DNA from: a virus
IMG/VR virus record: IMGVR_UViG_3300046524_000002
Location: 1-20,718 of that record
Strand: one strand, 5' to 3'
DNA length: 20,718 nucleotides
The position numbers were made by a program, and so were the translations under genes. The notes below the pieces were generated by a model. The model ran no database searches and had not been told where the DNA came from. It was given only the letters and a program-made list of their open reading frames with translations. The first letter of the stretch is position 1. Each line of letters starts with the position of its first letter. Of this stretch, positions 1-19,646 are shown one piece after another.

Positions 1-1492
1 CGTTAACAACCATGTTCCCGGTAAGGATAAGTGCACCAGCCGATGCGCGCGTTTGAGCCGCGCAAACAGAACTGCTGTCTCCCGGCGTACCGACGATGAT
101 AGCGTGGCTGCTGTTCGGGAAGTTGGACGACATCTTGAGGATCGTCGAGTAGACGCCTGTACCCTTCAGGATAACACCATCAGGGATGAACAGAACACTC
201 GTGAACATCATAGTGCCCTTCGGAAGAAGGACCGTATGACCGGCACCGCCGCCACTATCAAAGCCGGGGAAGGTTTGCATGGAAGCGAAGTTCATCGCGT
301 TCTGCAAAGCTGCACGGCAGTCCGTAGCGCCAATGTCACCACCGCCCGATGCTAACTGCGATCTGTTGGGGTCCCAGTCTGCCTTAACTCCGAACGCACA
401 AGCGTCGATGCCTTCCGGTCCCGGCACATACACCCACCAGCCACCGTTGGTGTTGTCGATAGTACCGTTCGGCAAGTACCGATCAGTAGAACGAACACCA
501 CCATACAACGGCTGTTTTAATGCGCGCTTGAACGTGATGACGTTGCAGTCACCAACGACATCGTAGCCAGCGCAACGCGCAAGCTGCACCGGAGGCACAG
601 CCGCAAGCGCGAGAGCCGCGCGAGACGAGAACTCACGGACGTTTGGTCCGGTAAGGTCAAGCTGCCAGTAGTTGCCCGCAACGTCAGCGAACGACATTGG
701 ACCGCCGACCGTACCGGGGATGTATATTTCCTTGGTGACGGGCTTTCCAACTGCGTCACGGACGATGCCGACGACGGAGGTAACGGGAATGGTTGCGGCC
801 TGCGCCTGTGCGCGAGTGTCGAACCAGCGCATCTGGACGCCGCTAACCGTATCGGCAGCAGCAACCGCAATGTCGCGTGCATCTTCAGCCGCAGCGAGTG
901 CAGCCTGTGCATCCGCTTCAGCGGCTTCCGCCGCGCTCTGAGACGCCAGCGCCTGTGCGAGCGCAGTCTCCGCGCCGTCGCGATCTTCCGCCGCGTCTGC
1001 GGCAGCGGCAACAGCGATCTCGGCTTCGATGACGCTAGTATGAGTATCAACGTATGTCTTCGTAGCAACGTCATCGGCTGCTACAGGCTCGCGCACGTTA
1101 ACAATGCTGAAGCCGCCTGCATCCAAGTCCTGTGTCAAGGTCGAGAAGCGACCGTCGAGAACCTCATGGATAGCCATCATAGCTTGCTTCTGAGCAATCA
1201 TGAGATTGTCTTCGTCAAGTTGATCGCCGTTGTCGAAGTCGATCCGTAGAACGTCCTTGTCCACGGTACGTTCAAATACAACGTGGACGCCGTTGCCAGC
1301 GGGAGTACCGCCGACTTGAATTAGATTGGTCGATAGAAAGGTGATTGGCCTATAAGACGGTCCGCCACTGCCATCCGTCTCTGTACCCACTCTGCACGTA
1401 ACGTCCGTTTCGAGCAGGTAGTCCAGAGCGAAGTTCACTGCGAACTGCGTAGTAGAGCCATCACCTGTAGCCACGACCCGCGAATAGGCCAT
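1..1492 (-). CDS. Tail fibre / tailspike protein, N-terminal 497 residues (C-terminus outside window)
   Basis: The frame is open from an ATG at 1492 to the window edge with no stop, so the gene is cut at its 3' end. Upstream is AAGGAG (1500-1505), seven bases before the ATG. Residues 1 to about 150 (MAYSRVVATGDGSTTQFAVNF..., ending near VATKTYVD) look like the T7 gp17 N-terminal domain that anchors the fibre to the tail. Residues about 155-219 are very Ala-rich with Asp/Glu/Arg (AAAADAAEDRDGAE), probably a trimeric coiled coil. From about residue 368 (FGVKADWDPN, then TDCRAALQNAMNF, LLPKG, GVILKGTG) the pattern is that of the pectate-lyase-3 beta-helix fold found in capsule- or polysaccharide-degrading tailspikes. 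Inference: receptor binding with possible depolymerase activity; the catalytic residues are not in view. The gene follows its own promoter-like site and a large inverted repeat. Anchor and helix calls are by motif pattern only. Confidence 0.9.
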   Translation of the reverse strand, partial: MAYSRVVATGDGSTTQFAVNFALDYLLETDVTCRVGTETDGSGGPSYRPITFLSTNLIQVGGTPAGNGVHVVFERTVDKDVLRIDFDNGDQLDEDNLMIAQKQAMMAIHEVLDGRFSTLTQDLDAGGFSIVNVREPVAADDVATKTYVDTHTSVIEAEIAVAAAADAAEDRDGAETALAQALASQSAAEAAEADAQAALAAAEDARDIAVAAADTVSGVQMRWFDTRAQAQAATIPVTSVVGIVRDAVGKPVTKEIYIPGTVGGPMSFADVAGNYWQLDLTGPNVREFSSRAALALAAVPPVQLARCAGYDVVGDCNVITFKRALKQPLYGGVRSTDRYLPNGTIDNTNGGWWVYVPGPEGIDACAFGVKADWDPNRSQLASGGGDIGATDCRAALQNAMNFASMQTFPGFDSGGGAGHTVLLPKGTMMFTSVLFIPDGVILKGTGVYSTILKMSSNFPNSSHAIIVGTPGDSSSVCAAQTRASAGALILTGNMVVN

Positions 1493-1546
1493 ATAGTAAC
1501 TCCTTGTATCTCCTAATAGGGAGGTACAGGTTCACTATATGGCCTA
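1485..1546. repeat. 62-bp dyad: 13-bp perfect inverted repeat enclosing a second hairpin
   Basis: The outer arms are 1485-1497 (TAGGCCATATAGT) and 1534-1546 (ACTATATGGCCTA), perfectly complementary over 13 bp. Nested inside is a 9-bp stem, 1505-1513 with 1520-1528, closed by the six-base loop TAATAG and containing one T-G pair. The left arm includes the fibre start codon (1490-1492) and its next two codons. The right arm lies just after the stop codon of the preceding internal virion gene (1552-1554). No U-tract follows on the minus strand, so this does not look like an intrinsic terminator. Confidence 0.8.
1508..1530 (-). promoter_or_regulatory. Predicted phage RNA polymerase promoter upstream of the tail fibre gene
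   Basis: The minus strand carries the 12-base core CCTCCCTATTAG (1524 to 1513) followed by GAGATACA. The segment CTCCCTATTAGGAGA matches the T7 promoter segment CTCACTATAGGGAGA at 12 of 15 positions without gaps. The surrounding 25 bases (1505-1529) are identical to the copy before the capsid gene. A start near 1513 would leave a leader of about 20 bases holding the fibre's Shine-Dalgarno sequence. The identity is seen directly; the promoter role is inferred from position at a gene-block boundary and the T7 resemblance. Confidence 0.65.
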
Positions 1547-1551
1547 AGTCA

Positions 1552-4500
1552 TTAGTCCTTCAGAGAGTTCAGGACGTACGTTGCACCGTATGCCTTGCCT
1601 ATAATCGGAATGGACTGTGCTGCGCGTACGTCGTTGTTCGACAGGTTGCCTGTCAGTGCGTGCCCGGCGATAGCGGGGATATGCATCATGCCGTTCAGTG
1701 CACTCAGCGATGCCGGTGTACTGAGGATGTCACCAGCCTGTCCGCGACTGCCGCCGAACGAGTTGATCTTTAGCGCATCGAGCCCGAGCATACCCGTAAC
1801 TGGATCAGCCCACATTGGGAGCCAGCCTGTCAGGTTGCTGTATCCGATAGCGCCGCGTGCGATCTTGTCGATGTTCAGGTTCTGTGTGTTGCCGTTGATC
1901 GCCTGCTTCACGGTGTACGCAGCCGCAGCCGTAGCCAGTCCAGCGAACAGCGTGCCGAGGCTCTCGCCATCCTGCACACGGAGGTTTCGCAGTGCCTGCT
2001 TCTCGATAGCCAGCAGCGAGAACGTCTTCATGTGATAGAACAGAGACGCGATACCGTCCTTGTGGAACAGCACGCTACTCTCGCCAGCCATCGCCTTCTG
2101 CACGACTTGGTTGACGTGCCGGTTCAGTGCGAGCACGAAGTCCTCTGCATCCTCCGGCTTCCACTTATCGAAGTTCGTCTTGAACAGCGAACCATCCTTG
2201 AACTCGACAACGCTTGCGCGGCGTCCGCCGACAGATGGGTTCACGTACAGGCGCTGGATGCGCGCGTACAGTGCGGGATCAAGTCCGATGTCCGCAGCGC
2301 GTGCTGCGCTCAGATCGTTAGCGAGCCCTGCCATGTTGCGCATGATCTTGTCCGCAGCCGACGTGACAGCAACTCGCTGTTGGAAGTTGCGAACCTGATA
2401 GTACAGTGACGTGTAGCCTTGAATGTGTTGCGCGCTGTTCAGCGTGCTCTGCATCTTCTGTGCGAACCAGCTAGAACCTGGCCCACTACGATCCATGTCT
2501 AGGTTCATGTCGTTCCTGAAGTATCGTTCTTCAGGCACCATCACGCCCATGTGCCGTAGCTCCTTCGCCAACTCTGACGTGGGGCTTAGTGCGTTACCGC
2601 GTAGCGCGGGCGCAGCGTGTTGAAACCACCGCTTCAATCCGACTGATGCGATCTGCGCACCAAGCTCCGACATCTGCGTCAGGCCGAGTTGCGGCAACAG
2701 CGACAGGTTCGTGAGCTTCTTCATGTTCGAGTAGAACGGGCTTAGACCACCAGCGATAGGACCACCAGTGAAGTTCGTGAAGAGTGCGTCGATGTCGTCA
2801 CCGCTCAGATGCTTGTCTCGATCAACAAGGTCATTGAACTTGTCGAGCGCCGATCCACCTGACATACGGCTAGGACCGCGAGCGGCCTGCTCTGCGAGGA
2901 TTGCTTCCTTGATGGCTGCGATGTCCGCGCGTGACGTGATGCCCTTACGGGCGAGCGCCGCAGAGCCTGCGGTGCTACGCACACGTCGAGCAAGCTGATC
3001 CGCCACATCGTTGTTGATGATGTCGAGAAGCTGGATGCCGTTAGACGCCTTGAAGCGCATGTCGATGTCGATGCGTTGCTTGGTATGGCCCTGCTGTCCG
3101 CGTGTCGCGGCTTCGCCGGTCAACTTGTCGATAAGCTTGAGAGCTTCCGCCTCGCTCACACCGTTAGCGCGCAGAGTGTCCTGCAAGAACTCTTTGCCGT
3201 CACCCTGTAGGATGCCGATAAGGTTCGTGTCGTGACCCTGTTCGTTACGACGTGCACGGTTCACCAGAGCGGAGGCGTACACGCGAGCATCTTCGATCTT
3301 CATCTGATGCTGATTAACGTACGCTTCAGCTACTGCTTCGATGATCTCGTCCACCTTGCGGCCAGCATGTATAAGCTTTTCCATCGCAGCACCGTTCCAC
3401 TTCTGCGGCATGTAGCCTGAGTAGTGGTCGAAGTTCTCGTAGCCTTTGATCGAGCCTTCGCCCGGTCGGCCTTTGCCGATCTCCACATCCTTCTTGTGGA
3501 AGTCATCAATAGCATCAGCAGCCAGCTTAACAGCCCGAGACGTTCCGCGATCAGTACCGGGAGGATCGTTCGCACGACCAGCCATCTCGATCTGTATCTG
3601 ACGATTGAACTCCTGCCTGTTCTCCGACTTGAAGCCGTCGATCACACTGAAGCCGTTGTCCTTGCTCCACAGTTTGTAGGAGTCGTCGTAGTGCATCGAG
3701 ACAGCACCGAGGACGTTCTTGTACATCTCCATCAGGTTCGCAGCGGAACGGTTGTTACGTACGATGCCGCTTGCGCTCTCTAACAGATCGTAGCTGAGCC
3801 TCTGTGCAACAACGGAGCCCGAGCGCCACAGCCTGTCGAAGTCTGTAGCCATCGGTGATGCCGCGAGCATGTCATGAAAGCGGGACGCCCACTTAGCAAC
3901 GTAGTCAGTCGCGGCCTGCGAGCCAGCGTTCGCACGCTGTACGATGCCAACGTACTTGTCGTTGTACTCGCCAGCGATGCCAGTGCGGTTCGCCCAGTTA
4001 CGCGCTGACGTAATCATGTCAGTGATGCGCTGGCTTTGAATGGTCGCCACCGAGCCGACAGACTGCATCTGCCGAGCACCGATAGAGCCGCCGTTCTCGC
4101 CCTGCACATCGTTCATGGTGTCGCCAGCTTTGGCGATCTTCAGTGGTTCAGATATTTGAGGTTCGCCGCGAGCCCATCGCCGCAAGTTTTCAGCCTCTGC
4201 TTCGTCAGCAGCTTTAGCTGTAGCGACTACCGTGTCCCACGATATAGGCTCTGCACGCGGGTTCAGTTCGTCAAGGCTTATGGTCTTGCCGACGCCTGCT
4301 TCAGTGTCGGACGGAATGTGGATGATCTCTTCGTCCTCGAAGTCTCCGCGCATGTCCTTCGGTTGGTCGCGTAGCGTCGTCTGCGTCTCAGCAGCGGCAC
4401 GGCTTCCGTACGGGTCTTCGTGTATGTGCGTCTCTGCACGCGGGTCGGCCTTAGCAAGCGGTGCGCCGTCCGCAACGTACTCGTCGAACTCGCGCACAGT

Positions 4501-5250
4501 CTTTAGCGCAGCGTCATTCGCGAGATGCTCAGGCTCTGACTTGCGGAGTGCGCCACCGGCTGCGCCGAACACCAAGCCACCTAGACCGGCAGCAGGGATA
4601 CTCGTCCAGTCGCCAGTCGTACCAGCCTCGAACGCAATGGTCTGTCCGGCCATCTGAGTAAGCGCACCAGCACCAGCGGTGCCCATGAGCTTGCCCCACT
4701 TCGTAGCCATGATGCCGCCCTTGAAGCCAGCCGCAGCACCACCAGACAGGAGGGACAGCGGCGTATCGAGGTCAACGATGCCAGCGAGGCCAGCAGCAAC
4801 GAATGTACTGAAGCCGCCACGGCGTTCCAGTATCTGTTGCTTGCTAAGCTCGTCGCGCATGTCGCTGAGCATAAGGCTGGCTTCCTTCTCAGAGGTCGCC
4901 ATGTGGTATTGCATTTCGAGAGACTGCGGGATCAGGTCGCGATTGCGCTTGATGAAGTCTTCCGCTTTGAAGTCTTTGTCGGGCGGCGGCGAGATAGCTT
5001 CGCGCTCAGCCCGCTTGTATAATTCGTAAGCCCAGTTTCCGCCGCTCGTGAAGGACTTCCCCACGCTGTCCGCGAATAGCTCCACGCTATCCGGTACAAG
5101 AGCATAGCCGCCCTGTACGGTGTTCGCCTCTGCTTCGAGGCGGTTCGTCTTAGACGTAGGCTCTGCGCCTATCGTATCATTCTCTGATACGTTGATAAGG
5201 GGATCGAGAACCTTAGTCGGGTCCGCAACCACCGGATCAATAATTCCCAT
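1552..5250 (-). CDS. Large internal virion (DNA-ejection) protein, T7 gp16-like, 1232 aa
   Basis: By length (1232 aa against about 1318 in T7) and position between the second internal virion gene and the tail fibre, this corresponds to T7 gp16, which leaves the capsid at infection and helps form the trans-envelope channel. Residues about 146-236 are a long Gly/Ala-rich hydrophobic tract (GGFSTFVAAGLAGIVDL, GALTQMAGQTIAF, GLGGLVFGAAGG). A second hydrophobic stretch lies near 1098-1118 (LGTLFAGLATAAAAYTVKQA). Both suit membrane insertion. I see no lytic transglycosylase motif at the N-terminus, where T7 gp16 has one; the wall-degrading domain seems to sit in the neighbouring protein instead. 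The ATG has AGGAG five bases upstream and follows a 49-base gap containing a perfect hairpin. Middle region: no recognised domain. Family assignment rests on size, order and composition. Confidence 0.82.
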   Translation of the reverse strand: MGIIDPVVADPTKVLDPLINVSENDTIGAEPTSKTNRLEAEANTVQGGYALVPDSVELFADSVGKSFTSGGNWAYELYKRAEREAISPPPDKDFKAEDFIKRNRDLIPQSLEMQYHMATSEKEASLMLSDMRDELSKQQILERRGGFSTFVAAGLAGIVDLDTPLSLLSGGAAAGFKGGIMATKWGKLMGTAGAGALTQMAGQTIAFEAGTTGDWTSIPAAGLGGLVFGAAGGALRKSEPEHLANDAALKTVREFDEYVADGAPLAKADPRAETHIHEDPYGSRAAAETQTTLRDQPKDMRGDFEDEEIIHIPSDTEAGVGKTISLDELNPRAEPISWDTVVATAKAADEAEAENLRRWARGEPQISEPLKIAKAGDTMNDVQGENGGSIGARQMQSVGSVATIQSQRITDMITSARNWANRTGIAGEYNDKYVGIVQRANAGSQAATDYVAKWASRFHDMLAASPMATDFDRLWRSGSVVAQRLSYDLLESASGIVRNNRSAANLMEMYKNVLGAVSMHYDDSYKLWSKDNGFSVIDGFKSENRQEFNRQIQIEMAGRANDPPGTDRGTSRAVKLAADAIDDFHKKDVEIGKGRPGEGSIKGYENFDHYSGYMPQKWNGAAMEKLIHAGRKVDEIIEAVAEAYVNQHQMKIEDARVYASALVNRARRNEQGHDTNLIGILQGDGKEFLQDTLRANGVSEAEALKLIDKLTGEAATRGQQGHTKQRIDIDMRFKASNGIQLLDIINNDVADQLARRVRSTAGSAALARKGITSRADIAAIKEAILAEQAARGPSRMSGGSALDKFNDLVDRDKHLSGDDIDALFTNFTGGPIAGGLSPFYSNMKKLTNLSLLPQLGLTQMSELGAQIASVGLKRWFQHAAPALRGNALSPTSELAKELRHMGVMVPEERYFRNDMNLDMDRSGPGSSWFAQKMQSTLNSAQHIQGYTSLYYQVRNFQQRVAVTSAADKIMRNMAGLANDLSAARAADIGLDPALYARIQRLYVNPSVGGRRASVVEFKDGSLFKTNFDKWKPEDAEDFVLALNRHVNQVVQKAMAGESSVLFHKDGIASLFYHMKTFSLLAIEKQALRNLRVQDGESLGTLFAGLATAAAAYTVKQAINGNTQNLNIDKIARGAIGYSNLTGWLPMWADPVTGMLGLDALKINSFGGSRGQAGDILSTPASLSALNGMMHIPAIAGHALTGNLSNNDVRAAQSIPIIGKAYGATYVLNSLKD

Positions 5251-5299: not shown

Positions 5300-8200
5300 T
5301 CAGTTTGCGTTGTAGACGTTCTCCATGTTGTCGCCGTTCAAGCCGGATGCTCCGGTCTTAAACATGCTGTTCCATGTCTTCGCCCATCGAGTAGGTTCAG
5401 TCTGAGCCTTGGCGTACTCTGCACCGATAGCCTTGACGTTCAGATGCTTCGGAGAACCGAGCGTCTGTTTCATTTCCGCGTCCTTGTACAAGTCCACGGT
5501 CATGATGCCGTTCTCTGCGTCGTACGTGATATGCACCGGAGGCGCGTCACGACGAGAACCAGTCAGGTTGTCCGGGTTCTCGTACTTGGACGAGATAGCG
5601 CGGGCGATACCTTGCGGGCTGAACTGTCGATCAATAGTACCGAGAGTGCTGATAGCACCCGCGATCTTCGACTGATGGTCGTAGGCAGAGTTCGCACCAG
5701 TGACGGGATTGGTCGTCGTGTCGAACATGCGCTTGCCGCCAAGCAGCGTGCTGCCCTGTTCGTCGTACGCCTGCGGCCACAGCTTAGCGCCGTTGTCGCG
5801 AACGTACTTCTCGATTGCAGCTTCAGCAGCGTCAGGACCGAAGCCGTCGAGGCCCATCGTCTTAGACAGTTCCTTGCCGGGCTTGGTGATGACGAGGTTG
5901 CCCATGACAGGCGTAGAGTTGCGCTGCAAGTCTTGCAGTCCCTTCTCAAGCGACACTTCACCATGCTCACGCGGTTCGAGTGCGTGATACATCTCTGCAC
6001 GTTGCGTCACGTAGTTCTGCGCAACCGTGTTGTTAGTCAGGATGCGCTCACGCTCGCTAGGGTCTTTCGTAGCGAACCAACTGTCGAGGAAGCTACCGTG
6101 AGTACGCTCAAGCAATACACGCTTCAGGTCCACGTCGAGCTTCTGCTTCCACACCACGTCCTTATTGATCTTGTCGTTAGGGTCGCGGTTAGGATCGTTC
6201 AGTACCTCGTGCGCCTTTAGCAGCGCCTGATCCTTGGAGAGCGTGCCGCCGTCAAACAGGAAGGCGTGCTCAAGCAAGTTGCGCGTGGTCGGGTCCGGTA
6301 CGAGCTTCGCCATGTACGCCGGGCTGATGTCGCCAGTCGTCTTGAGGTTCAGCCACGTATCGTACGCCTGCCGAGCCTCGTCAGAGACCTTGCCGTCCTT
6401 GACGATGTTGCCCTGAAGAGAACCGTTGATCTGATCCACAGTCTCCTTATCGACAACGCCATGGTTCTGTAGTTCGAGCGCCACCTTGCGTTCGAGCATT
6501 CCCTTGGCCTGCGAACGATCAAGCGTACCGTTGTTAACGGAAGTAGTAATCTCCTTCGCCCATTTGTCCTTCACCTGTTGAACGCCGTACTCTTCGGCAG
6601 TGATCGTGACAGGATTGCCCCTGTTGTTCGTAGCCTTCAGCGAGCCGGTGACGTGAGCAAGGCCGTTACCGTTAGACAGCGCACGGTCCACGTTGGCCTT
6701 GATGCCATCCTGTTCGGCCTTGGTCTTAACCGCAGCTTCCACCTTCTCACGAAGACGGGTCTGGTACGACTGATCCTCAGTGAACATCTTGCCGACGATC
6801 TTCTGCACGTCCTTCTCGGTCGCGCCGTACTTCTCAGCAATCTTCTTGCCCTGCGCAGCCGCAGACTTGAACTCAAGCGAGCCAGAGGCGATGCCTTGGT
6901 ACAGTCCGCCCAACTCACCGAGCATATCGGGGTTAGCCATCTGCGTAGCGTTGTCGCCTTTGCTCTCAGCGCGTATCTTGTCGAGAGCGCCAGTAGCGAG
7001 AGCACGAGCCTGTGCATCGTTCATCAGTCCGCTTGCGCGGCGCTTGTCGATGTCAGCAAGGATACTGTCGCGGTCTTCGCCCTTCTCAGCACGAGCCTTG
7101 ATGTCGTCCTCGAACTTGATGTTCCCGGTGTTGAACTCCGTGAGCTTCTTGTCGTCGAACCGCTTCTTGGCTTTGATAACCTCGTCGATGTCCGCAGCCT
7201 TGGCACGCAGGTTCTGCATCATTGCGATGCCGCCTGCGTCGTTGAACAGCTTGTCGTCGCCAGCATCGAGCGTGCGGCGCATAGCATCCGCAACAGCCGC
7301 AGCCTTGTCTTCAGGCTTGAGTGCCGAAGTCATGATGCGCTGCGTTACCTCGTTCTGCGGTACAGGCTTTACCTTGCCGGACATATAGGCGGCAGTGTCT
7401 TTGTCCATGTACTTGTGCATCTGCGCGTAGCGAGCATCCGCCTCTTCAGGCGTCCTGTAGGACGGGAAGTTATCCCACCCGGCCTTCTCTACGTTATCAA
7501 GTGCAGCCTTGTTCGGCACATCAAGAGACGTACCGTTAGGACGAGTGTACTTCTCTACTTCGCGCTTACCATTCCACACAGTTGGGATGTTGTAGAAACG
7601 TCCGTTGTGTTCCTGCACAGCCACGTACACCGTAGAGCGGCTACCCTGCGGATTGTTTTCGTCAGGGGGATTATCGACGCCACCGGGACCATTCAAGTTA
7701 TTCACATGACGGTCGTACAGTGCGCGCTCTTGTGGGTTCAGGTTCAGTGTGCTCTGTGCTTCGTCTGCATGAGAGTTGCCTGCACCGTTCGTCTTGCCGA
7801 CGAAGATATGTCCGCCGATCTTGATACGACCACCACCGCGCTTGGTCTCTTCGTCGAGCCAACGTGGAACTGTGTTCGTCTGATCGCCGTCGTTCACGAG
7901 CTTCTGCATTCCAGCCGGGCTGTAGTAGTGCGTAGCGCCGCCTGTCTGATCGACGTGCTTACCCGCCATGACGGCATCGAACACTTCGCCAGCCCGCTCG
8001 TAAGCGGGAGAGCCGGGCTTCGCATTGTACGGGATAGCGTTACCGCCAGCGCCAGCATTCCACGTCGAGAACTGTTGCGGCTGAAGCGATACCTCTGCCA
8101 CGCTCTTGGGGTAGCGGCTGTCCGTGGTGCGGTTCTTCAGGACATGGGCAACTGCGGCCAGTCCTTCCGCGCCCTCATTACCAGCCTCGCCAAGCATGGT

Positions 8201-8899
8201 ACGGATACCAACGTCGCGATCCTTCGCACTAGGCGTGAGGATCGGGCCAACCGGCACTGGCGACAGCGACAACTGCCCACCAGGTTCACGGCGAGATGCC
8301 GTGGCACTGGTAGGTGCAGTCGAGGCAAGCTCAGTCGAGAACGACTTGACGCCCTCAACACGATTGTACTCGTTGTGCTTGATAGCCTGCGTAGCGGCGA
8401 GACGCGGAGACATATCCTCGAACGCTGCGCTCGCTACCTTGCGAGCCTGCGGGTCGGTGATGCGTGAGAGAGTATCTGCGCGCTGCTGCTGTAGCTGCTT
8501 CGCATAGTCCTTCGGGTCCATCGTCTTGCCGGTCTCGTCCATAGCGACCGTCTGATCCGTGAACCAGTTGTTCACTTGGTCACGAGCCTGCGATGTACGA
8601 TAGCCCTGCGCAGTGAAGGCGTTGCCGCTTTCAAGCATCTGCGCTTCAGTGACACCTGACTGGTAGGCAATCTTGCCTTCAGTCAGCCACTGATCTTTCT
8701 TGTTCTCGAACTCCTTTTGCAGAACGCCCTCTACGCCCTGTAGCGCCTCCTGTAGACCGTCACGGTTGGTCAGGCTTGCGGCACTGGGAGTATGAGGGGT
8801 CTGCACGCCGCCCAACTGTAGCGAACGGTTAGGACGCTGTTCGCGCGGGTTAGGTGCGAGTGGGTCTTGTACGACCGCGCGCGTTCCTTCGTTAGCCAT
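5300..8899 (-). CDS. Internal virion protein, T7 gp15 position, with SleB-type cell-wall hydrolase domain, 1199 aa
   Basis: This is the middle of three genes in the order of the T7 ejection proteins gp14, gp15 and gp16, and is clearly longer than T7 gp15 (about 747 aa). Residues about 227-368 match the SleB/hydrolase-2 family: MLGEAGNEGAEGLAAVAHVL (E238 in GEAGNE is the likely catalytic acid), then NR, QPQQFSTW and GATHYYSP. This suggests peptidoglycan cleavage during DNA entry. A second module at about 420-505 (VQEHNGRFYNIPTVWNGK ... TPEEADARYAQMHKYMD) resembles a short domain of unknown function that I recall from other phage virion proteins. The remainder is Lys/Glu-rich, largely helical sequence with no recognised motif. 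The ATG at 8899 has AAGGA upstream and follows the preceding stop by eight bases, indicating one operon. The SleB call is good; the gp15 equivalence is by synteny. Confidence 0.85.
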   Translation of the reverse strand: MANEGTRAVVQDPLAPNPREQRPNRSLQLGGVQTPHTPSAASLTNRDGLQEALQGVEGVLQKEFENKKDQWLTEGKIAYQSGVTEAQMLESGNAFTAQGYRTSQARDQVNNWFTDQTVAMDETGKTMDPKDYAKQLQQQRADTLSRITDPQARKVASAAFEDMSPRLAATQAIKHNEYNRVEGVKSFSTELASTAPTSATASRREPGGQLSLSPVPVGPILTPSAKDRDVGIRTMLGEAGNEGAEGLAAVAHVLKNRTTDSRYPKSVAEVSLQPQQFSTWNAGAGGNAIPYNAKPGSPAYERAGEVFDAVMAGKHVDQTGGATHYYSPAGMQKLVNDGDQTNTVPRWLDEETKRGGGRIKIGGHIFVGKTNGAGNSHADEAQSTLNLNPQERALYDRHVNNLNGPGGVDNPPDENNPQGSRSTVYVAVQEHNGRFYNIPTVWNGKREVEKYTRPNGTSLDVPNKAALDNVEKAGWDNFPSYRTPEEADARYAQMHKYMDKDTAAYMSGKVKPVPQNEVTQRIMTSALKPEDKAAAVADAMRRTLDAGDDKLFNDAGGIAMMQNLRAKAADIDEVIKAKKRFDDKKLTEFNTGNIKFEDDIKARAEKGEDRDSILADIDKRRASGLMNDAQARALATGALDKIRAESKGDNATQMANPDMLGELGGLYQGIASGSLEFKSAAAQGKKIAEKYGATEKDVQKIVGKMFTEDQSYQTRLREKVEAAVKTKAEQDGIKANVDRALSNGNGLAHVTGSLKATNNRGNPVTITAEEYGVQQVKDKWAKEITTSVNNGTLDRSQAKGMLERKVALELQNHGVVDKETVDQINGSLQGNIVKDGKVSDEARQAYDTWLNLKTTGDISPAYMAKLVPDPTTRNLLEHAFLFDGGTLSKDQALLKAHEVLNDPNRDPNDKINKDVVWKQKLDVDLKRVLLERTHGSFLDSWFATKDPSERERILTNNTVAQNYVTQRAEMYHALEPREHGEVSLEKGLQDLQRNSTPVMGNLVITKPGKELSKTMGLDGFGPDAAEAAIEKYVRDNGAKLWPQAYDEQGSTLLGGKRMFDTTTNPVTGANSAYDHQSKIAGAISTLGTIDRQFSPQGIARAISSKYENPDNLTGSRRDAPPVHITYDAENGIMTVDLYKDAEMKQTLGSPKHLNVKAIGAEYAKAQTEPTRWAKTWNSMFKTGASGLNGDNMENVYNAN

Positions 8900-12495: not shown

Positions 12496-12526
12496 AAAAA
12501 GCCCCGGCCCAATTAAGGACCGGGGC
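12496..12526 (-). terminator. Rho-independent terminator after the major capsid gene
   Basis: On the minus strand GCCCCGGTCC, loop TTAATT and GGGCCGGGGC form a 10-bp GC-rich stem with one U-G pair, followed directly by TTTTT and then G. It starts about 20 bases after the capsid stop codon (12546-12548). T7 has its main late terminator at the same place, after gene 10, where partial termination makes capsid mRNA more abundant than tail mRNA. The same role is inferred here. Confidence 0.93.
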
Positions 12527-12545: not shown

Positions 12546-13520
12546 TTACGCCTTGAACACCGCGCCGCACACGTCGGGGCGATTGATCGAGACACCGAAC
12601 GCGAGGAAGCTGTCGATGAACCACTGCTTCTCTTCGCGGTTGAACCAGATGTCGCTCTGAAGCGGAATGGTCTCACCGGCGAGGAAGGACTTCGGGTGCA
12701 GGATGACTGCAACGGCCTTCGCCTGCGCGGCCGACACGTCGTAAGCATTCGCGTTCTGCGCGTTGCTCAGGAAGTGCCCGGTGATCGCGGCAGTCGGGAT
12801 GCGCGCAGTCTTGACGATACGGACGCCCTTCAACTCGTAGATCATTCCCTTCGCGAAGTCACCGTTACCGGCAGCGAAGTCACGCGAGATAAGCTTGTTG
12901 TTGTTCAACAGCGTCTCGAACTCGGTAGGACGAACGAAGATGACGAGTTCAGTAGTCTCGATCTCTTCCTCTTCCATGTCCACGATGATGCCCGCGATAG
13001 CCTTGTACAGCTTGTCGGGATCGAGTTCATCGAGAGCGGCGGACAGCGTGGCGGACTTGCCAGCGCCGATGGACTGCTTGGACGGGGAGCCGTCACCGAG
13101 GACAGGGGCCGCAGCGGTGCTGCCCTTGATGCCCATGATGATGAAAGCCTGATCGAAGAACTTGCCAAGCTCCTTGCCGTGATCCTGCGCAAGCTCCTGA
13201 CGCGCGTCGAAGTGCGTCTGAAGATCGTTCAGCATGGAACGGTTGTCGCGGGCGAGCACAACGGTATCGACGGTCAGCGAGACCTTGCCGAACGGCGTGA
13301 CTTCACCCTGCGGGCGGACGCCGGGGACCAGCGCCTTCAGCGTGGTACGACCAACGCGGTTATTCGAGATAGTGTCGGTGCCCCGGACGGGGCGAACTTT
13401 CGCGTACTGCCGCATGATGGCGGACTTCGCGAACTGGCTTTCGACCATGCCACCGTACTGCTCAAGCAGTAGCGAGACATCCACATCGGAAAGGTCGGGG
13501 CCGGGAATTTCGTAAGACAA
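12546..13520 (-). CDS. Major capsid protein (T7 gp10-like), 324 aa
   Basis: This is the HK97-fold shell protein of the T7/phiKMV group, by position after scaffold, by length (T7 gp10A is 345 aa) and by pattern: ESQFAKSAIMRQYAKVRPVRG near the N-terminus, then a spine-helix region (ARDNRSMLNDLQTHFDARQE), LVIFVRPTEFETLLNN in the centre, and HPKSFLAGETIPLQ and AFGVSINRPDVCGAV at the end. The only reasonable start is TTG at 13518-13520, with AGGAG five bases upstream; the first internal Met is residue 25. A TTG start is unusual for what should be the most abundant phage protein. The gene is preceded by one strong and one diverged promoter-like site and followed by a terminator, so it can form its own high-level transcript. 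No second, frameshifted form is evident. Confidence 0.94.
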   Translation of the reverse strand: MSYEIPGPDLSDVDVSLLLEQYGGMVESQFAKSAIMRQYAKVRPVRGTDTISNNRVGRTTLKALVPGVRPQGEVTPFGKVSLTVDTVVLARDNRSMLNDLQTHFDARQELAQDHGKELGKFFDQAFIIMGIKGSTAAAPVLGDGSPSKQSIGAGKSATLSAALDELDPDKLYKAIAGIIVDMEEEEIETTELVIFVRPTEFETLLNNNKLISRDFAAGNGDFAKGMIYELKGVRIVKTARIPTAAITGHFLSNAQNANAYDVSAAQAKAVAVILHPKSFLAGETIPLQSDIWFNREEKQWFIDSFLAFGVSINRPDVCGAVFKA

Positions 13521-13553: not shown

Positions 13554-13585
13554 CCGCTGTATCTCCTAATAGGGAGGTACAGCGG
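13554..13585. repeat. 13-bp hairpin around the capsid promoter-like site
   Basis: Arms 13554-13566 (CCGCTGTATCTCC) and 13573-13585 (GGAGGTACAGCGG) pair over 13 bp with a single T-G pair and the loop TAATAG. The inner nine pairs are shared with the tail fibre site; the outer CCGC/GCGG pairs are specific to this copy, so the pairing extends beyond the conserved sequence. In minus-strand RNA the T-G pair becomes a C-A mismatch. No U-tract follows. Confidence 0.78.
13561..13583 (-). promoter_or_regulatory. Predicted phage RNA polymerase promoter upstream of the capsid gene
   Basis: The minus strand contains the core CCTCCCTATTAG (13577 to 13566) followed by GAGATACA, within 25 bases (13558-13582) identical to the site before the tail fibre gene. 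It lies in the 77-base gap between scaffold and capsid, the place of the strong phi10 promoter in T7. A start near 13566 gives a leader of about 46 bases. Promoter function is inferred from repetition, T7-like core and location. Confidence 0.68.
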
Positions 13586-17180: not shown

Positions 17181-17206
17181 CCTATTAGCGGCTATTATCT
17201 AATAGG
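17181..17206. repeat. 8-bp perfect inverted repeat joining promoter core and ribosome-binding site
   Basis: CCTATTAG (17181-17188) and CTAATAGG (17199-17206) are exact reverse complements separated by ten bases. One arm is part of the promoter-like core; the other contains the AGG of the Shine-Dalgarno sequence of the 51-aa gene. A further inverted pair, GGCTA/TAGCC on the minus strand, lies around the core. Confidence 0.65.
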
Positions 17207-17216
17207 GAGGGAACTA
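17194..17216 (-). promoter_or_regulatory. Predicted phage RNA polymerase promoter at the end of the RNA polymerase gene
   Basis: The minus strand reads TTCCCTCCCTATTAGATAATAG; the 12-base core (17210 to 17199) is identical to the capsid and fibre sites, while the downstream bases (ATAATAG rather than GAGATACA) differ. It begins at the RNA polymerase stop codon (17214-17216) and would start transcription of the whole virion block, about 26 bases before the first small gene. Inferred promoter. Confidence 0.6.
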
Positions 17217-19646
17217 GCCAAAGAAGTACAGCGAACGCTTCACGTCTTGGATGTCGAGCGAGCCATACGCGGGAAGCGGCTCAAGCTCGTACTCAGTATC
17301 CTTGTACTGCTCAGCGAGTGCTTGCAGTGGATCGTGGTCGGAATACAGCGCCACGAAAGTCTCTCGGATGATCTCGCCCAGTCGTTCAGTGTCTGCGGCA
17401 TGTGTGCCGAAGTCATCATGAATGAACGCTAACGGTGCGATACCTTCCGCCTTGCATTGTCGAACTACCGCGCGCATGTGCGCCGCGTCTTGTGAGTGAA
17501 CGAAGTTAGGTGCGACGCCGTTGCGCTGTCTGTTGCGGTCGATGTCGTCGGTGAAGTTTCCAACTCGTAGCTGGAAGCGTCCACCTAGCTGCGTCTCGAT
17601 CTTCGTCGAGTTGATGACACGAGTGCCCATGTAGATCGGGAAGCCATCGTAGGCTGTCCATGTGATAGGCTCGTTCTCTTTGCTCAAGACACTTGCTGCG
17701 CGCTGTAGCCACTTCATTGCGTCACGCGCAGCGACGACAACCTCTCCGATGCTCTCCCACATATACGGGGTAAGCCAGCACGACGCTTTGAAGTTGCCAT
17801 CGAAGTGCTCGCGGTCTGTCGTCATGACGTACTCGAAGATGTACTTCGTGCATGACTGCCGCGTCGATCCGTACGGCAATGTCATCACCGGCCGCTTGGC
17901 TAACTTCCTTGGTATGGTTCCTTCACCGTGCTTCTCAATATATGAACGCCAGCCATCACTGAACGGATCATCTGAAGATTGCGTTCGTAGTTTTCCAGTG
18001 CAGACTTTAGCGACTGCTGTGTAGATGTCAGCGGGTACGGCAGCAGGTACAAGGTTCGTGTAAGTCCCTCCGACGTTATCGCGGAGCATGGCGCTGAAGT
18101 GTTGCAGCCCGTTGCACGTACCGTCTCGACCAACTGGGATGTGGGATACGAAGTCCCCGATGTCACGTCCTAGTGCCTCCAATGCTAATGCGTCTCTGTA
18201 CTCGAACAGCCACGCTAGGAATTGCCACGGCTTGTCCGCATTGCCCCACACGTCAGTATGAGACATCGGATCGTTCGCCGCTCGCAGGAAGAACTCCTGC
18301 TGTTCGTCAACCCACTTCACGCGGTCGTCGTAGCTTACCTTGTCGTGACCGAAGCGGTTCGCACCGTTCACCCGATGCCAGTACCATCCCGTAGCGCCCA
18401 GTGCTTTACTCTCGCGTGGTCGTAGTAGTCCCTTGGCAATGTCTGCGCCTTGTGGGTTGAAGCCGCTCGTCGTCGGGTAAGCTCGTCCTCTGCTGTCGTA
18501 GTACCACACGTACCAGAAGCGATCATACTGAGTGTACTCGCTTGCGAGCCGGATGATGCGGCTGATCTGGAACGACTTGCTGCGCCGTTCCTTTTCCTGC
18601 GTGTGGATTTCAGCGGCTTCATGTTTCCAGTCCGTGAGTTGTTCTTCCTCCGCCTCCGTAAGCTCCGTGCCTTTGGCGAACGGGCTTGGCGGAATAGTCA
18701 GAGGTTCTTTCGGAGGCATACCGATTGTGAGGTTCGCGTTCCAGCACGCAGTCACGACTGCAAGTATCTCCGTGTTAACTTCCCACGGTACAGCTTGCAG
18801 AGCGTTCAGCGCCTCCATGGCGAACGACAAGTCACCGGCCTGTACGTGCTGGCGATGTCGCTTGCCGCTCGTCTTAATCATCGGCGTAGCCTGCCGAAGT
18901 TCAGGACTGTAGTAGCCTCCCTGATTGAGACCAGTCCAATCGTCCGGTGGAATGATGCACGGCATCTTGTCGGGGAACAGAAACTTGCTGAACTCCTTGT
19001 GCTCGTCGATCCACTTCTTTGCGCTGTCGGTCGGCACCAGCAGCGTACGGGTCTTGCCGTGCTGGTTGAACTGCCGCTTCTCGATCAGGTCGGTGTTCGT
19101 CAGGATCACGTCCACCAGCTTCATGCCGACTTCCGCACGCTCCGATACCGTCCACTCTATCCACTCGTCCTGCATCTCGTTCGCTTTGTGCGTCAGCACT
19201 CGATGCATGAACCTGTAGTCCTTCGTGCCCTTGCGCTTGAAGTCCTTCTTGATCGCGTCGTAGTAGTCGCCGTGCATCTCTTGGAAACGGGAGAACCGAA
19301 CCTCGTCCTCAACCATCCTGCCGATGCGTGTAGCGAGGCCCGCCAGCGGTGCCTCGTGAGTGAACGAATTGAACACAGCCTGCATCGCAAGATACATCGC
19401 CTTGTCGGGCGAGGCTCTGTGTAAGAGCGTCCTGATCTTGCCGTGCTTACCCGGCCGATTGGTAGTAACGAAAGAAGTCAGCGCCTCGATCAGAGGCAGC
19501 ATGAACTCCTGTAACAGCCTCTGTGCGTATGCAGTCTCTGCACCCCGCCCGGCTTCTTCTGCTTCCTTTGTTGCACGCTCGAAAGTCTCAGCACCTTTGA
19601 AGACCATCGTACGTTCGAGTTCTAGCTGACTGTCTATCGTCTGCAT
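17214..19646 (-). CDS. T7-type single-subunit DNA-directed RNA polymerase, 810 aa
   Basis: All catalytic residues of the T7 family are present: D508 in GRDGTCNGLQHFSAMLRD (T7 D537), R580, K584 and Y592 in PRKLAKRPVMTLPYG (T7 R627, K631, Y639), and H743-D744 in FIHDDFGTH (T7 H811-D812). The N-terminal domain begins with LELERTMVFKGAETFERA and the C-terminus is LYFFG, compared with FAFA in T7. The region matching the promoter specificity loop (about 689-707, GRFQLRVGNFTDDIDRNRQR, before GVAPNFVHSQDAAH) is about three residues shorter than in T7, so it should read a different promoter. The ATG follows the endonuclease stop by one base; the Shine-Dalgarno sequence is weak. Placement after the replication genes, directly before virion genes, is the phiKMV-like order, which implies that host polymerase transcribes a large early region first. 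Confidence 0.97.
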   Translation of the reverse strand: MQTIDSQLELERTMVFKGAETFERATKEAEEAGRGAETAYAQRLLQEFMLPLIEALTSFVTTNRPGKHGKIRTLLHRASPDKAMYLAMQAVFNSFTHEAPLAGLATRIGRMVEDEVRFSRFQEMHGDYYDAIKKDFKRKGTKDYRFMHRVLTHKANEMQDEWIEWTVSERAEVGMKLVDVILTNTDLIEKRQFNQHGKTRTLLVPTDSAKKWIDEHKEFSKFLFPDKMPCIIPPDDWTGLNQGGYYSPELRQATPMIKTSGKRHRQHVQAGDLSFAMEALNALQAVPWEVNTEILAVVTACWNANLTIGMPPKEPLTIPPSPFAKGTELTEAEEEQLTDWKHEAAEIHTQEKERRSKSFQISRIIRLASEYTQYDRFWYVWYYDSRGRAYPTTSGFNPQGADIAKGLLRPRESKALGATGWYWHRVNGANRFGHDKVSYDDRVKWVDEQQEFFLRAANDPMSHTDVWGNADKPWQFLAWLFEYRDALALEALGRDIGDFVSHIPVGRDGTCNGLQHFSAMLRDNVGGTYTNLVPAAVPADIYTAVAKVCTGKLRTQSSDDPFSDGWRSYIEKHGEGTIPRKLAKRPVMTLPYGSTRQSCTKYIFEYVMTTDREHFDGNFKASCWLTPYMWESIGEVVVAARDAMKWLQRAASVLSKENEPITWTAYDGFPIYMGTRVINSTKIETQLGGRFQLRVGNFTDDIDRNRQRNGVAPNFVHSQDAAHMRAVVRQCKAEGIAPLAFIHDDFGTHAADTERLGEIIRETFVALYSDHDPLQALAEQYKDTEYELEPLPAYGSLDIQDVKRSLYFFG

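Follow-up and report, generated by a model that had tools for sequence, protein, structure and literature searches.

A predicted hairpin with a T7-type late promoter at its tip may mask the tail fibre start in read-through RNA of T7-like phages

In a fragment of a T7-like phage, the start codon of the tail fibre gene sits within the stem of a predicted RNA hairpin that carries a putative phage late promoter at its tip. The fragment, hereafter the window, is the whole stretch of DNA that was analysed (20,718 nucleotides; IMG/VR record IMGVR_UViG_3300046524_000002). The best explanation of this arrangement, held with moderate confidence, is a hairpin specific to read-through RNA that masks the fibre start. 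Polycistronic late RNA that starts at the capsid promoter and continues across the internal virion genes would contain both hairpin arms and fold, burying the fibre AUG and/or its Shine-Dalgarno sequence. RNA begun by the phage polymerase at about position 1513 would lack the upstream arm and leave the fibre start cheap to open. Most fibre protein would consequently come from the short messages of its own promoter, and the long late message would contribute little. Computed directly were the complementary arms and their retention in close relatives, the confinement of the hairpin to the promoters of the fibre and capsid genes, and the gap in opening cost between the two RNAs. Masking as the selected function of the hairpin is the leading reading only.

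The main genes of the window lie on the minus strand and encode a single-subunit RNA polymerase, portal, scaffold, capsid, nozzle, internal virion proteins and tail fibre, the scaffold being identified from its gene position. The following features are relevant to the analysis:

1..1492, minus strand: tail fibre gene, with PF03906 (T7 tail-fibre N-terminal domain) and pectate-lyase-like PF12708; extends past the window end
1485..1499, minus strand: hairpin 3' arm, from fold and inverted repeat; includes the fibre ATG at 1492-1490
1500..1505, minus strand: fibre Shine-Dalgarno AAGGAG, from sequence; about half paired in the window's predicted read-through RNA
1509..1525, minus strand: putative T7-type late promoter core ACCTCCCTATTAGGAGA in the phi17 position, which makes up the hairpin's loop and the top of its stem; transcription predicted to begin with the G at 1513
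1532..1546, minus strand: hairpin 5' (upstream) arm, from fold and inverted repeat; begins 5 nt past the stop codon of the upstream gene
1552..5250, minus strand: internal virion protein gene upstream of the fibre gene, 1232 aa; TAA at 1554-1552
12501..12526, minus strand: terminator-like hairpin followed by TTTTT, directly 3' of the capsid gene, in the T7 Tphi position
12546..13520, minus strand: major capsid protein gene, TTG start, PF21703
13545..13593, minus strand: sister hairpin centred on the capsid promoter, from shuffle test and folds; the capsid start codon is not covered
13562..13578, minus strand: second exact copy of the promoter core, in the phi10 position ahead of the capsid gene
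17195..17209, minus strand: third promoter-like site CTCCCTATTAGATAA, a weaker copy after the polymerase gene, without arms
17214..19646, minus strand: single-subunit phage RNA polymerase gene, PF00940 and PF14700

The 17-bp core ACCTCCCTATTAGGAGA occurs exactly twice in the window, ahead of the fibre and capsid genes, and 0.01 matches with up to three mismatches would be expected. Twelve of 15 core bases, compared by eye, agree with CTCACTATAGGGAGA of T7, and the same core was found again in related phage records. A recurrent core, an encoded phage RNA polymerase, and sites ahead of the capsid and fibre genes, all of them seen in the window, together characterize T7-type late (class III) promoters. 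The preliminary description had placed a promoter near 1513, between the hairpin arms; the second exact copy and the likeness to T7 support a promoter there, which would fire at 1513, and its location between the arms holds. Its suggestion that fibre output depends on the choice of polymerase is not supported. The phage enzyme is the most likely source of both RNAs, and no further promoter site lies between the capsid and fibre genes at up to four mismatches with a motif-centre filter, a search that could overlook a more diverged promoter. The internal virion genes are therefore presumably read from upstream by the same enzyme. A scan of the window for terminators gave no excess of hits (10, against 9.1 expected from shuffles) and none in the stretch from the internal virion gene to the fibre start; the hairpin at 12501..12526 is distinguished from the other hits by its 10-pair stem. 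Because neither a terminator hit nor a promoter site intervenes, the anatomy suggests that transcripts serving the internal virion genes necessarily reach the fibre site.

The 13-nt sequences at 1485-1497 and 1534-1546 are perfect complements of each other, separated by 36 nt. Among 200 dinucleotide-shuffled versions of the window, 7 contained a perfect 13-bp inverted repeat with a gap of 3-60 nt (mean 0.045), so the repeat by itself is modest evidence; chance is excluded by the position of the hairpin and its conservation, not by the repeat alone. The predicted read-through hairpin on the minus strand comprises 25 bp, with pair positions counted from the computed fold. Its outer stem pairs 1546-1532 with 1499-1485 (15 bp, one G-U) and contains the fibre ATG. 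Inner pairs join 1530-1528 to 1504-1502, 1527-1525 to 1508-1506, and 1523-1520 to 1513-1510, closing a loop at 1519-1514. Across eight distinct fibre sites, the predicted hairpins measure 22-25 bp, each with one to three G-U pairs, and in the folds the upstream stop codon lies 1-8 nt ahead of the first paired base.

The perfect complementarity of the 13-bp arms over the fibre start, as first described, is accompanied by a hairpin in all nine close relatives. A protein-based search of IMG/VR with the fibre N-terminus returned 13 loci. The hairpin is present, with altered arms, in 9 of 9 loci with at least 66% fibre N-terminal identity and absent from 4 of 4 at 42-44%. Upstream arms vary among relatives, including by insertions and deletions, yet all still pair. 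When the upstream arm was shuffled and the 3' arm kept, none of 1000 shuffles matched the observed fold at any of the nine fibre sites, two of which (L058 and L060) share identical arms; z ranged from -5.7 to -8.0. By comparison, no hairpin excess appeared at the other promoter-like sites of these phages (12 of 12; z -1.4 to +1.3, 300 shuffles each). These control sites had up to three mismatches and kept CCCTATT, a selection that does not include the 4-mismatch site of G005 or the sites of G004. Since none of the 12 shows an excess, the arms are not part of promoter recognition. Two further candidates were dropped as chance pattern matches, G006 for a context unlike all others and G011 for want of a fibre N-terminal match.

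Exchanging arms between relatives gives a mixed picture, in which the own partner is not always favoured. The altered 3' arm of G005 pairs at -31.4 with its own 5' arm and at -17.2 to -19.0 with the other eight, and the 5' arm of G008 pairs at -27.9 with its own 3' arm versus -23.7 with the common one. The 3' arm of G008, however, is bound better by the foreign 5' arms of G003 (-33.2) and G005 (-32.4) than by its own. For 35 of the 48 ordered pairs, random arm substitution reached the observed energy in at most 5% of 400 trials; these pairs are not independent, 8 of 56 with fewer than three substitutions were left out, and no indels were simulated. Two-sided changes are few, with one position in the fibre-fold pair table, because the 3' arm is fixed by the Shine-Dalgarno sequence and start codon. 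A MAFFT alignment of the fibre sites misaligned the 5' arms, and pairs were instead tabulated from individual minimum-energy folds, which biases the tables towards pairing. In the corresponding table for capsid sites, shifts of register account for some changes that look two-sided. The outer stem base has only 3 bp at L058, L060 and L061, and there the AUG pairs elsewhere once more downstream sequence is included.

As a prediction, masking has good support. When 100 nt of upstream sequence are included, opening the region from the fibre Shine-Dalgarno to the AUG in read-through RNA costs a computed 12.7-22.8 kcal/mol at the nine sites; in promoter-born RNA the same starts cost 0.4-7.1 kcal/mol. 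The read-through cost is the greater at 9 of 9 sites, a large gap that agrees with the earlier proposal of a fibre start open in promoter-born RNA and shut in read-through RNA. Eight other gene starts of the window cost 2.8-10.7 kcal/mol. Masking is weaker in G001 and G002 (12.7 and 13.4 kcal/mol). Sliding windows along whole records reach the fibre value in 1 of 227 cases in the window, 1 of 498 in G003, 1 of 502 in G005 and 1 of 515 in G008. In G001 the fibre value is reached by 77 of 525 sliding windows and also by 3 of 39 ORF starts. Of the five records tested, then, four show extreme masking, and in G001 it is ordinary.

The part of the start site that is covered differs between the window and its relatives. 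The preliminary description had the start codon buried and AAGGAG probably so; in the window's predicted read-through RNA the former stands (mean probability of being unpaired 0.00 for AUG), whereas AAGGAG is only about half buried (0.51). At the other eight sites the emphasis is reversed, with 0.00-0.17 for AAGGAG and 0.03-0.35 for AUG. In promoter-born RNA, Shine-Dalgarno openness rises at 8 of 9 sites, from 0.00-0.17 to 0.44-0.89. The window is the exception (0.51 versus 0.52), and there the AUG opens instead, from 0.00 to 0.39. The AUG alone is freer in promoter-born RNA at only three of nine sites (the window, G002 and G005), because the short RNAs make other, weaker pairs; its openness is lower at G001, G008, L058, L060 and L061 and the same at G003. 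For masking to act in cells, the predicted hairpin would have to form there and survive ribosomes and RNases.

This class of mechanism is already known from T4. Published accounts describe a hairpin at the translation start and a late promoter nearby for T4 e, soc, 49 and I-TevI, and also for segB and Aeh1 mobE (PMC3014915, PMC2988022); the parallel to T4 gene e drawn in the preliminary description is correct (PMC3014915). As these accounts present it, the T4 start is sequestered in a long transcript, as predicted for the window, and the promoter lies in or beside the 5' strand, so that the short transcript lacks that strand and is translated. In the computed folds of the window's clade, the stem likewise sequesters the Shine-Dalgarno and/or AUG in the long transcript, most weakly in G001. 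The two systems differ in several respects. The T4 long RNA is described as early or middle and the short RNA as late, both made by the host polymerase, whereas both RNAs of the window are, from the anatomy, probably late and made by a T7-type polymerase. Furthermore, in the window the promoter core is the stem tip and loop, the gene is the tail fibre gene, and the case is known from computed folds.

A second parallel comes from mobile elements. IS10 and IS50 use fold-back protection against read-through into transposase, in which an outer repeat present in read-through RNA pairs with the start region, and RNA from the gene's own promoter lacks that pairing. Unlike the window, these are mobile elements with host promoters and another biological purpose. 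The usual picture of late genes in T7-type phages is one of free translation from overlapping late RNAs. In the open-access literature, including that on LUZ100, no case was found of a T7-like phage with a read-through hairpin that masks a translation start. If the proposed masking is correct, the concealment of a start codon in read-through RNA, known from T4, has arisen among T7-type phages as well; there it would provide one way of setting the dose of tail fibre relative to capsid and a natural design uniting promoter and start site in one element.

Masking as the sole function is doubtful because a similar hairpin at the capsid promoter leaves the start codon there free. The predicted capsid hairpin measures 17-20 bp at seven sites, and between 0 and 2 of 1000 upstream-arm shuffles match the observed fold at 7 of 7 sites, taking 32 nt for the 3' arm; in arm swaps, own pairs are often not the strongest. 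The capsid start region costs 3.7-6.2 kcal/mol to open in read-through RNA versus 3.2-5.5 kcal/mol in promoter-born RNA at the seven sites. Given nearly the same cost in both RNAs, masking cannot be a function common to the fibre and capsid sites. In promoter-born capsid RNA, the same 3' strand is predicted to fold into a different 5'-end hairpin, for example GCGGACTAGTCCGC in G008, and the capsid leader may therefore be two-state. A broader proposal, possible but tentative, treats promoter-tipped hairpins as read-through sensors: the fibre gene would be silent on long late RNA, with output following the local promoter only, and the capsid strand would refold in promoter-born RNA. Were this so, one single-subunit polymerase would make two functionally different messages from the same genes. 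A TTG start of the capsid gene (13518-13520 in the window) is apparent at all nine listed sites (seven distinct), found with a search string that presupposed TTG. Ahead of it, CCTATAGGA, which resembles a small copy of the promoter centre, occurs in six of the seven distinct sites.

A single function for both sites is offered by RNase III. In this serious rival to masking, somewhat improbable in our estimate, an RNase III site would overlap the late promoter, and the host enzyme would cut the read-through hairpin at capsid and fibre, separating the messages. The 5' ends left behind would lie near those of promoter-born RNA, and the fibre start would be released, not hidden. The predicted stems (22-25 bp at the eight distinct fibre sites, 17-20 bp at the seven capsid sites) span about the one to two helical turns typical of such substrates, and according to one report E. 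coli RNase III needs no more than a stem of 12 bp capped by a tetraloop (PMC8708148). Among 13 T7 promoters folded, phi13 (z -3.5) and phi17 (z -3.7) stand out, with hairpins involving the upstream side. The predicted phi13 hairpin (about 27234-27280 of NC_001604; L109) spans the promoter, with an upstream arm and no start codon in the stem, and we take it to be the T7 RNase III site R13; no paper giving the position of R13 was found in the open-access literature on T7 RNase III sites beside promoters. However, the 12 other promoter-like sites tested in the window's clade lack such a hairpin, and processing gives no reason for the 3' arm to be the start codon itself. T7 phi17 shares genome position and promoter type with the fibre site of the window; the gene 17 start, in contrast, is unmasked (8.2 versus 7.1 kcal/mol).

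More distant relatives bear on a junction role, which likewise competes seriously with masking. All 17 more distant fibre loci (13 distinct sequences; L054, L055, L056, L089-L092 and L094-L103), from phages of Rhizobium, Agrobacterium, Bradyrhizobium (phage Paso), Stappia and others, have a hairpin with a 4-nt loop within 40 nt ahead of the fibre promoter, at or just past the upstream stop codon, and TTCG occurs within those 40 nt in 14 of the 17. The capsid upstream folds of Palo, RHEph02 and Atu_ph03 (3 of 3 examined) also contain hairpins at or ahead of the promoter. With the hairpins of T7 phi13 and phi17, the distant fibre loci suggest that these phages more widely carry a stem-loop at late promoters, and the shared purpose of such stem-loops may be RNA processing or protection. 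A junction hairpin, whether guarding the 3' end of the upstream message or insulating cistrons, could have merged with the promoter in the window's clade, leaving masking as a by-product. This is unlikely in our view: the relatives fill that role without using the fibre start as an arm, and in each close relative the upstream arm is matched to the start region, even where that region is altered. Relatives that keep the promoter core and lack a complementary arm, which the preliminary description held would speak against its proposal, occur only at a distance. RHEph02-type phages keep CTCCCTATTAGGA without a masking arm, and close relatives keep both. At 8 of 8 distant loci tested the fibre start is predicted to be unmasked (2.7-6.0 kcal/mol), and among the phages examined the fibre start serves as a hairpin arm only in the window's clade. 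If the masking reading is true, relatives with masking and non-masking hairpins at the same junction offer a clean comparison; limiting fibre translation would then be what the hairpin was selected for.

Translational coupling would hide the start on the long RNA and open it by means of ribosomes finishing the upstream gene, tying fibre synthesis to upstream translation. With the upstream stop codon 1-8 nt before the first pair, a terminating ribosome would cover part of the arm and may open the stem base. The inner stem would nevertheless remain closed, and coupling is unneeded given a promoter at the hairpin tip, which makes this explanation improbable. Least probable by far is a role in DNA, as in hairpin promoters of the N4 virion-polymerase type, or as an intrinsic terminator: although the inverted repeat encloses the promoter, the 12 other promoter-like sites lack arms, the one to three G-U pairs in each of the eight distinct fibre hairpins suit RNA more than DNA, and the stem is followed by coding sequence and not by a T-run and is not listed by the terminator scan.

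Within the window, no RNA family of Rfam matched at the gathering score, and among annotated phages the 301-base fibre junction has no DNA relatives. A 629-aa open frame at 6578-8467 on the plus strand lies opposite the gene at 5300-8899 and is probably a side effect of codon usage. A tyrosine integrase match (PF00589) is present in 4 of 4 related phage records of 45-47 kb that were searched (G001, G003, G005 and G008), the match in G003 being partial and at the record end. A search of bacterial genome contigs gave 14 hits, of which nine were set aside as chance, judged by context. The other five, from Bradyrhizobium sp. LTSP885 (503-kb contig) and B. retamae Ro19, showed promoter sites. The window's clade probably comprises temperate T7-like phages of Bradyrhizobium.
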